Positions 349 through 46,830 of a stretch of 48,878 nt of DNA are shown one piece after another; positions within the stretch are counted from its first letter, which is position 1, and every line of letters begins with the position of its first letter. Origin of the DNA: an uncultured Clostridia bacterium (lineage in GTDB: Bacteria > Bacillota > Clostridia > Christensenellales > UBA1242); assembly GCA_947629745.1 (NCBI GenBank), contig CANREZ010000007.1:1-48878 (forward strand), read 5' to 3'. Below the pieces are notes generated by a model. It ran no database searches. It saw only the letters and a list, made by a program, of their open reading frames with translations, and was not told the DNA's origin. The translations under genes and the position numbers were made by a program.

Positions 349-490
349 AATAAGAGGGTTCTAAGTTAGCTCTAAATAGGATAAGAAATATATAGAGATA
401 GGGATAAAAGTCGGGACCAAGGCGGGAATATAAGCACGCTCAATCCCCTCAGGCGGTAGTTACCACCAGCTCCCCCTACTACGGGGCGCC
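349..490 (+). repeat. double-hairpin repeat, copy R1 (with long 5' arm)
   Basis: The core at 438-490 reads GCTCAATCCCCTCAG, then a short inverted repeat (GGCGGT/ACCACC), then AGCTCCCCCTACTACGGGGCGCC given here in pieces: AGCTCCCCC, TACTA, CGGGGCGCC. The second half can form its own CCCC/GGGG hairpin. The 90 bases before the core align by eye with those before copy R3 at 1502, so the repeat unit is about 140 bp, with a purine-rich arm and a GC-rich hairpin end. Confidence 0.85.
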
Positions 491-656
491 TATAAGCGGT
501 CGCTATTAAATATAAAATCATAATAGGTATTATTCAAATGAAGAAGCGAGAATATAAGAAAAATCGGTTGAAGATTGAATGAGTGAGTGGAGAATATAGG
601 CACTAATCGGTTAAATACAATATATGAGGGGAAAAGATGGCTTAAATCGGTCACTT

Positions 657-670
657 CCTCATAAGGCGCC
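657..670 (-). repeat. solo end of the hairpin repeat family
   Basis: On the minus strand this reads GGCGCCTTATGAGG, the same bases that lie at and just beyond the GGCGCC end of copy R3 (1634-1647). No hairpin core follows. An AAATCGGTC word precedes both this site and copy R2 on the plus strand, suggesting an eroded or partial copy. The 491-779 interval otherwise shows nothing gene-like. Confidence 0.5.
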
Positions 671-779
671 AAGACAAAAACTAGGTCAAAAGACCTAATT
701 AAGAAAAAAAAATAATTAAGTAGTAAGAATATAATCGAAAATAATGGTGCAATAGATGGTAATAAATCGGTCCTCACAA

Positions 780-880
780 GGCGCCCCGTAGTAGGGGGAG
801 CTGGATGCGTATGCAGACTGAGGGGATTGAGCAAGCTCCTCCACCCTATTCAGGTTCCAACTATACCCTCTCTATAATAT
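780..880 (-). repeat. double-hairpin repeat, copy R2 (inverted)
   Basis: Core 780-832 is the reverse complement of the R1/R3 core: the GGCGCC end points left, followed inward by the CCCC/GGGG hairpin, a variable middle and GCTCAATCCCCTCAG. The adjoining 833-880 (with TATACCCTCTCTATA) resembles the reverse complement of the purine-rich arm before R3. The inner inverted repeat is poorer here than in R3 and R4. Confidence 0.8.
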
Positions 881-1045
881 AATCTACAACCTTAATTACC
901 TACCCCCAACATCCAACTATAACGCATCGCCGCCTTATGAGAGAAATAATAAGTAAAAAAGTACAGCCGATAAAAGAGGCGAGCGTGGCGTGATGTGCGA
1001 AGTCGTCGTGCCGTGCCCGCTAAATGCAGGTTCCATCTATATTCC

Positions 1046-1405
1046 CTATCTTCTCTTACCCCTCACATAGTTATCTATATACTCGCAAACTGCTTGAAAC
1101 TGTGTATTAATCCAATTATTAGGGATGCGGATAACAGTCAGGCCAAATTGTTCAAGAAATTCAGTGCGAATTTGGTCATGTTTTAGGCCTGCTTCCTCAT
1201 AATGTTGTGATCCATCCAATTCAACCACAAGTTCAGCATTTGCACAATAGAAATCCGCAATATATTTATTGATAACCGCTTGTCTACGGAATTTTACAGG
1301 ATAATTCTTCAAAAAATCATGCCAAAGATGTCGCTCTTCCTTAGTCATGTTGTGCCTAAGATTTTGGGCGTTATTTATTAAGGATTTATTGTATTTTCGT
1401 TCCAT
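1046..1405 (-). CDS. DUF559 endonuclease-like protein
   Basis: 119 residues. The sequence fits the DUF559 family, a Vsr/restriction-endonuclease-like fold: an N-terminal helical segment with LRHNMTKEERHLW, then KFRRQAVINKYIADFYC, then the core ELVVELDGSQHYE, and a late FGLTVIRIPN strand. In this fold the Asp of IADFYC, the Glu and Asp of VELDGSQH and nearby polar residues would form the nuclease centre, and all are present, so it looks intact. Start supported by AGGTGA five bases before ATG. It lies alone between inverted copies R2 and R3, and the bases around its stop codon resemble the repeat arm. Nuclease activity and any role in spreading the repeats are inferred from family and position. 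Confidence 0.85.
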   Translation of the reverse strand: MERKYNKSLINNAQNLRHNMTKEERHLWHDFLKNYPVKFRRQAVINKYIADFYCANAELVVELDGSQHYEEAGLKHDQIRTEFLEQFGLTVIRIPNNWINTQFQAVCEYIDNYVRGKRR

Positions 1406-1501
1406 TTGTCACCTATACTAGTTTAACATAAAACGTGGAATATATTGTAATAAAATGAGGGTAAAAGTTAGGATAAATGCGGATATATGATATTAATTAT
1501 T

Positions 1502-1645
1502 AGAGGATACTAAGTTGGCTTTAGATAGGATGAAGAATATATATAGAGAGGGATAGAAGTCGATACCAAGGCGGGAACGTAAGCACGCTCAATCCCCTCA
1601 GGCGGTAGTCACCGCCAGCTCCCCCTACTACGGGGCGCCTTATGA
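1502..1645 (+). repeat. double-hairpin repeat, copy R3 (with long 5' arm)
   Basis: Core 1587-1639 is nearly identical to R1, but its inner hairpin is a perfect GGCGGT-AGTC-ACCGCC where R1 has one mismatch. The 85-base arm before it (CTAAGTTGGCTTTAGATAGG and following) aligns with the R1 arm. It ends GGCGCCTTATGAGG, shared with the solo end at 657-670. Confidence 0.85.
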
Positions 1646-1716
1646 GGTGGAATGCTTATTTGAACTTGTAGAGTCCATTTTATGGGTCTATTTTCCCTAG
1701 GAAAGTGGCGTGCCAC

Positions 1717-46596: not shown

Positions 46597-46696
46597 TTAG
46601 AGGGCTTAAAGTTGGTACATAAGATTAGCACAATAGCTTGCTCAATCCCCTCAGTCTGCACATTCGTGCAGACAGCTCCCCCTACTACGGGGCGCC
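46597..46696 (+). repeat. double-hairpin repeat, copy R4
   Basis: Core 46640-46696: GCTCAATCCCCTCAG, then a perfect inner hairpin GTCTGCAC-ATTC-GTGCAGAC, then the same AGCTCCCCC-TACTA-CGGGGCGCC end as copies R1-R3. The arm (46597-46639, with TTAGAGGGCTTAAAGTTGG) resembles the arms of R1 and R3. Confidence 0.85.
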
Positions 46697-46830
46697 TTAT
46701 ATTGAAGTAAATTAATTAACTTGTGGGCGCCATATGAGGAAAATATATGAGATAATTAAATTACCTTAAGTACGCCTTATGTGGAAGATATTAAGTAAGA
46801 TAATTTTATTAACTTGTGTGGGCCTAACAG
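46697..46830 (+). repeat. imperfect repeats of about 45-60 bp next to R4
   Basis: The words GCGCCTTAT, GCGCCATATGAGG and CGCCTTATGTGG begin three related stretches containing TTAATTAACTTGTG, GATAATTAAATTA and GATAATTTTATTAACTTGTG. The flank of R3 (1634-1675) also continues TTATGAGG...GAACTTGTAG, so these are probably parts of the same repeat family. No gene is seen in 46444-47065; 46840-47035 is AT-rich with several ATATATATC words. Confidence 0.5.

Follow-up and report, generated by a model that had tools for sequence, protein, structure and literature searches.

The window, i.e. the entire 48,878-nucleotide stretch that was analysed, derives from an uncultured Clostridia bacterium and encodes, close to one end, an intact 119-aa protein of the DUF559 family (PF04480; 1046-1405, minus strand), which both profile and structural model indicate to be a putative endonuclease of the Vsr/EDxHD fold. 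Four copies of a repeat of about 55-70 bp are present in the window, two of which lie inverted around this gene: R2 (772-837, minus strand), a double-hairpin repeat on its 3' side, and R3 (1570-1650, plus strand), a double-hairpin repeat on its 5' side. In both, the CAATCCCC end faces the gene, while the GGCGCCTTATGAGG end of R3 faces out. Aligned as inverted arms (772-837 against 1582-1647), they are 83% complementary over 66 nt with identical outer 24 bases, and the DUF559 gene is the sole credible gene between them, as a first-pass annotation of the sequence had held. The other two copies are solo: R1 (421-491, plus strand), a copy of the R3-type end recovered both by repeat search and by its direct-repeat match to R3, and R4 (46635-46700, plus strand). 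The 24-mer AGCTCCCCCTACTACGGGGCGCCT occurs at exactly four sites in the window (468 +, 779 -, 1617 + and 46674 +) and at none in 100 shuffles. The left flank of the R2-DUF559-R3 arrangement is the contig end.

Certain details of the first-pass annotation required revision. It had taken the arms for repeats of about 53 bp; their inversion and the match of the outer 24 bases stand, but the repeated unit is longer, as R1 and R3 agree over a 153-nt direct repeat (86%; 339-491 and 1488-1640), adding about 95 bp on the inner side in the form of an R3 extension (1488-1581, plus strand) shared with R1 (339-432). The double-hairpin structure holds for R3 and for R4, the best-folded copy in the window (DNA folding z of -2.5 and -4.1, respectively), whereas in R1 and R2 the first hairpin is imperfect and DNA folding is no better than that of shuffles. 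Likewise, R1 and R4 are indeed gene-free copies, but the supposed solo end at 657 is a 14-bp exact match to a piece of the outer end (CCTCATAAGGCGCC; 657-670, minus strand), with the rest of the repeat absent.

The window protein matches PF04480 over its full length (profile positions 3-106 of 109; E=1.9e-29; 102.1 bits against a cut-off of 20.6) and retains the conserved residues D51, E62, D64, Q67 and H68; positions invariant across 40 relatives include, among others, D51, E62, D64, H68, D77, R80 and N96. An AlphaFold2 model (mean pLDDT 87) finds its closest structural matches in Neisseria NGO0050 (3HRL; Z 15.6), the homing endonuclease I-Bth0305I (Z 13.3) and Vsr (Z 11.7), followed by Hjc and TnsA at Z 7-8, a level that may reflect a common arrangement alone. 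The protein is accordingly modelled as a Vsr/I-Bth0305I-like nuclease (Vsr-like/PD-(D/E)XK fold), in line with the Vsr/restriction-like fold to which it had initially been referred. EDxHD and Vsr enzymes are metal-dependent DNA endonucleases. A DUF559 gene has also been assigned to the EDxHD homing family in the literature (PMC9403480). A single-sequence query with the protein retrieved no relatives from viral contigs, whereas an alignment query did find some. A defence-system reading was rejected: the PADLOC matches were just weak ones, to larger nucleases.

The repeat is abundant in the 973-kb genome that contains the window: a DNA search yields 54 matches and a covariance model 71, of which 63 are strong. 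An exact-pattern scan of the genome_contigs collection with a 25-mer from the window gave no match. The genome consensus consists of CAATCCCCTCAG, a variable hairpin and CAGCTCCCCCTACTACGGGGCGCCT, and the layout can be described as a pyrimidine leader CCCTC[A/C]G, the variable hairpin 1, a CA[G/C] spacer and a conserved hairpin 2 of the form CTCCC..GGGAG. Between copies, hairpin 1 shows strong covariation (in the model, helix 2 has 90% of its cells paired and five of six pairs changed on both sides), and the structure as a whole scores 0.264, compared with 0.076 when shuffled and 0.025-0.083 when slid. An outer stem CCTCA/TGAGG was rejected as a general feature, just 56% of its cells being paired. 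Rfam 15 holds no gathering-score match for the repeat, only chance-level matches appearing at E<=5. A second palindrome, GTGGCACGCCAC followed by TTTCCT, is found in the window (1705-1716, minus strand) and at many places across its genome, where it often precedes or replaces the variable hairpin (CAATCCCCTCAG-GTGGCACGCCAC), which makes for a mosaic of exchangeable modules.

Neighbouring copies less than 500 bp apart in this genome are arranged '+ -' in 13 instances, with gaps of 4-270 bp, and '- +' in none. R1 and R2 form such a common '+ -' pair, whereas R2 and R3, with the DUF559 gene, constitute the only '- +' pair within 1 kb. Thus, gene-less and gene-bearing pairs in this genome are of opposite types, and the form in which the repeats multiply may differ from the gene-bearing one. 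As the genome has a single DUF559 gene, adjoined by one of about 63 copies, the case for the link proposed at first pass rests on other genomes.

There the link is strong. When the window's repeat model was run against 59 relatives, it matched four genomes of other families, and in all four the best match adjoins a DUF559 gene. We further collected 79 named loci, chiefly of gut Clostridia, by DUF559 protein alignment and independently of the repeats, 71 of them distinct, with other positions within the same loci as controls (n=1006 for the inverted-flank score; n=1171 for the double hairpin). A model-free inverted-flank score of at least 22 is reached by 52% of DUF559 genes as against 0.9% of the 1006 controls, though the score alone separates poorly in GC-rich plasmids, where 22% of controls reach 20 and a count of C-rich hairpins performs better. 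A double hairpin lies within 400 bp of the DUF559 gene at 61 of the 71 loci (86%, against 5.7% of the 1171 controls), on both sides at 36 (against 0.4%), and in the outward (-,+) arrangement of arms at 27 (against 0 of 1171); L113 shows the opposite arm orientation. After clustering at 75% protein identity the respective figures are 44, 25 and 16 of 52. Tabulated in this manner, the position of DUF559 between inverted copies, which had been suggested from the window's single instance, is a recurrent one.

The two also co-occur by genome. Using a general repeat model, we detected the repeat in 47 of the 53 genomes with a short DUF559 gene and in 32 of the 244 without, among 297 genomes of the order (Fisher p~1e-26); since this model was made from arms beside DUF559 genes, it may inflate such one-copy figures, but hardly the high-copy figure, i.e. 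at least ten copies in 31 of 53 against 13 of 244 of the same genomes (with counts reaching 20 per genome recorded as at least 20). By genus, the repeat accompanies DUF559 in 36 of 38 cases and is present in 10 of 88 without it (p=5e-20). Thus, the DUF559 gene and the repeat belong together far beyond chance, and in a preferred geometry. The 13 genomes with at least ten repeats and no detectable DUF559 gene fit gene loss, but also spread by something else. One genome from the window genome's own family (G208) lacks a DUF559 gene but matches the general double-hairpin model strongly at 17 sites, possibly as a relic of gene loss.

At many gut loci the unit takes a compact form of about 450-500 bp, in which the left arm stops directly short of the ATG and the right arm takes in the stop codon. 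The spacing is fixed: 15-17 bp separate the left hairpin from the ATG, and the right arm overlaps the last 13 bp of the gene, stop codon included. The left arm is of the CCCTCCGTC..GCCACCTCCC..GGGAGGC type in reverse orientation, and the right arm reads ACAATCCCTCAGTC..GACAGCTCCC..GGGAGCC, with the stop codon within it. The window shares the outward (-,+) geometry of these compact units, but its arm-gene gaps are 209 and about 165 bp instead of about 15 bp; hence, the unit in the window may represent a looser or a decayed variant. In L115, whose protein is the closest to that of the window (70%), the gene is followed by a very similar repeat, present three times in tandem. Six loci (L117, L119, L120, L122, L125 and L164) additionally display, beyond the right arm, a sequence of about 160 bp with hairpins of its own (ACTTGTCAATTTTCCTGACAAG ... 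TACGGCATA..TATGCCGTA), which is also found behind a different DUF559 subfamily and stands alone in the genome G116.

Beyond Clostridia, we considered 23 loci from plasmid records, E. coli, Neisseria, cyanobacteria, alphaproteobacteria, Deinococcus and two gut scaffolds. A C-rich hairpin lies within 300 bp of DUF559 at 17 of them (9% of control positions), and at least two at 15 (3% of controls); these loci being few, non-independent and with repeats that differ in sequence, the partnership of DUF559 with C-rich palindromes in other phyla is suggestive only. In E. coli, a sapF-ycjD-fabI query is matched over at least 80% of its length at one place in 3361 of 5426 genomes, and the DUF559 gene ycjD looks settled between sapF and fabI. 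The sapF-fabI interval was rejected as an empty site, because two inspected genomes that matched sapF only and lack ycjD carry multidrug efflux genes in its place.

Comparison of relatives shows that the units are gained or lost between them and that gene-less derivatives exist, as expected from the early suggestion of an autonomous element with non-autonomous derivatives. The genome G116 contains gene-less units composed of a left arm, about 20 bp and a right arm, with the same asymmetry as its full element, alongside many single arms. An orthologous human-gut locus occurs in three states: full (MT835756), reduced to a solo double hairpin (MT836752) and empty (MT835801), all three records being labelled unverified phage but possibly bacterial. 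In the neighbourhood of a mazF-like gene, DUF559 is present in 3 of the 24 species of one genus with a match there; in one of two sister species there are about 740 bp of extra sequence with a broken DUF559 gene, the flanks being otherwise collinear. The empty sites sought at orthologous loci are thus found in relatives, and at the relatives' empty, solo and full loci no consistent target-site duplication was recognised. In G307, G053 and G316, of one genus, DUF559 lies near the same mazF-like gene, upstream of it in two species and downstream in the third, which gives the site the look of a recurrent target.

Among Deinococcus plasmids, DUF559 lies between hpaB and an oxidoreductase gene in D. 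proteolyticus, where its flanking arms are near-perfect inverted repeats; between the oxidoreductase gene and hpaE, which overlap by 4 bp in D. proteolyticus, in strain NW-56; and at a third place in the hpa operon in D. aetherius. Two unrelated loci of one genome (L172 and L173) share 489 identical bp including the whole gene, beyond which identity falls to 107 of 120 positions on the right and 65 of 94 on the left, with the farther flanks unrelated; such uneven identity is consistent with one element copy serving as template for another, by gene conversion or in a homing-like manner. Taken together, these sequence comparisons indicate movement in relatives.

We propose, with a probability of roughly 0.6, that R2-DUF559-R3 represents a minimal mobile unit which occurs widely and is spread by nuclease-driven, homing-like break-and-copy. 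The unit would consist of a gene for a nuclease of about 115 aa with the Vsr/EDxHD fold between two inverted double-hairpin repeats. The nuclease is predicted to recognise its bracketing repeat and to break or nick DNA at or near it, whereupon host repair would copy the unit, or the arms alone, into the break, a break-and-copy and not a cut-and-paste route. The solo repeats, among them the 60 or so further copies in the window's genome, would then be non-autonomous products. If recognition or repair acts on a folded or cruciform form, hairpin 1 should change in sequence but stay paired, as it does. That the DUF559 nuclease drives the spread of the repeat is our inference from these patterns.

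The chief rival, which we regard as unlikely, is that a selfish homing-endonuclease gene invades pre-existing repeats, cutting at repeat pairs and being copied in between their two arms, with some other route accounting for the spread of the repeats as such. The gene-less two-arm units with their gap of about 20 bp could be its unoccupied form, L172 and L173 carry identical genes within diverged element flanks, some genomes are rich in repeats without the gene, and I-Bth0305I, the closest characterised fold relative with a role in mobility, is itself a homing endonuclease. However, high repeat copy number tracks the gene by genome and by genus more strongly than independent spread predicts, and the fixed overlap of ATG and stop codon with the arms suggests a long-standing unit. 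Both this alternative and the break-and-copy unit predict cutting of the cognate repeat; they differ on whether solo repeats need the gene.

Other readings fare considerably worse. The Vsr-like fold of the model and the Caulobacter DUF559 protein VsrA, an SOS-induced protein with a proposed role in mismatch repair (PMC12907096), would suit a repair or methylation-linked endonuclease, with the repeats as terminators or extragenic landmarks where small genes insert; but the repeats are missing at matched positions within these same DUF559 loci, and the fixed spacing, the many copies per genome and the gene-less two-arm derivatives make this a very improbable and already disfavoured account. Slightly less probable still is that the double hairpin acts as an RNA (a guide, attenuator or regulatory element) with the gene as its regulated or guided partner and mobility secondary: the strong covariation of hairpin 1 and the presence of the fold in the RNA-linked protein FASTKD4 speak for it, whereas the lack of an Rfam match, the dispersed solo copies in both orientations and the absence of any target-like variable stretch among the repeat copies seen speak against it. 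Finally, a chance juxtaposition of a common repeat with an unrelated gene might be read from the one in about 63 copies that adjoins DUF559 in the window's genome, but it is refuted by the (-,+) arrangement at 27 of 71 DUF559 loci and at none of the 1171 control positions, leaving it a negligible probability.

Extragenic palindromic repeats fill many bacterial genomes, and we know of no mobilising enzyme for those without a RAYT. On the reading of the window unit as a break-and-copy element, a wider proposal can be made, which we hold tentatively and at a little under even odds: single-domain Vsr-like DUF559 nucleases across phyla might partner a large class of orphan double-hairpin or C-rich repeats, forming autonomous break-and-copy units of about 450 bp, with the hairpins as recognition elements, as a non-HuH counterpart of the REPtron. 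If the tight partnership is true, it would supply a function for an uncharacterised family of nucleases with members in both E. coli (YcjD) and Neisseria; such units would be among the smallest candidate autonomous mobile elements, they would offer a new sequence- or structure-directed nuclease, and the origin of the repeats would become directly testable. A search covering open-licence journal articles found no paper linking DUF559 or YcjD to palindromic repeats, in agreement with the initial impression that a DUF559-based transposition system is undescribed. The evidence thus suggests that very common orphan repeats stem from a compact type of mobile DNA that has not yet been described.

Among known systems, Neisseria NGO0050 (3HRL) and E. 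coli YcjD belong to the same DUF559 family and their genes also lie beside C-rich palindromic repeats, but they occupy single, apparently settled loci in their species. The Vsr mismatch endonuclease shares the fold, whereas DUF559 is found with repeats and, on casual inspection of its loci, no neighbouring cytosine methyltransferase was noticed. The EDxHD homing endonuclease I-Bth0305I is alike in its catalytic fold (rmsd 2.5 over 95 residues) and gives a weak sequence-profile match (E=0.0036); the DUF559 gene, however, is intergenic rather than within an intron or intein, is bracketed by its own repeats and encodes one domain of about 115 aa with no separate DNA-binding region. As in a terminal-inverted-repeat transposon, inverted arms stand at both ends, in the window and in relatives. 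Empty and solo alleles occur in relatives, albeit without a recognisable duplication. The gene-less derivatives keep both arms like MITEs of classical insertion sequences, but the DUF559 unit has no DDE transposase and no recognised target duplication. A parallel in organisation is the REPtron, in which short extragenic palindromes in many copies, often in inverted pairs, accompany a single bracketed nuclease gene (RAYT, i.e. TnpA_REP, an HuH Y1 nuclease) and solo repeats are presumed non-autonomous units (PMC8266576, PMC3733652). Here, by contrast, the nuclease has the Vsr-like fold of DUF559 and not the HuH fold, the window's genome has no Y1/HuH transposase gene (PF01797) at E<=1, whereas 10 of the 14 controls have one, and the repeat is a two-hairpin structure whose alignments show a CCCTC[A/C]G leader, where a REP is a single palindrome tagged by GTAG/CGTC. 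The window unit thus works like a REPtron but fails its defining HuH feature.
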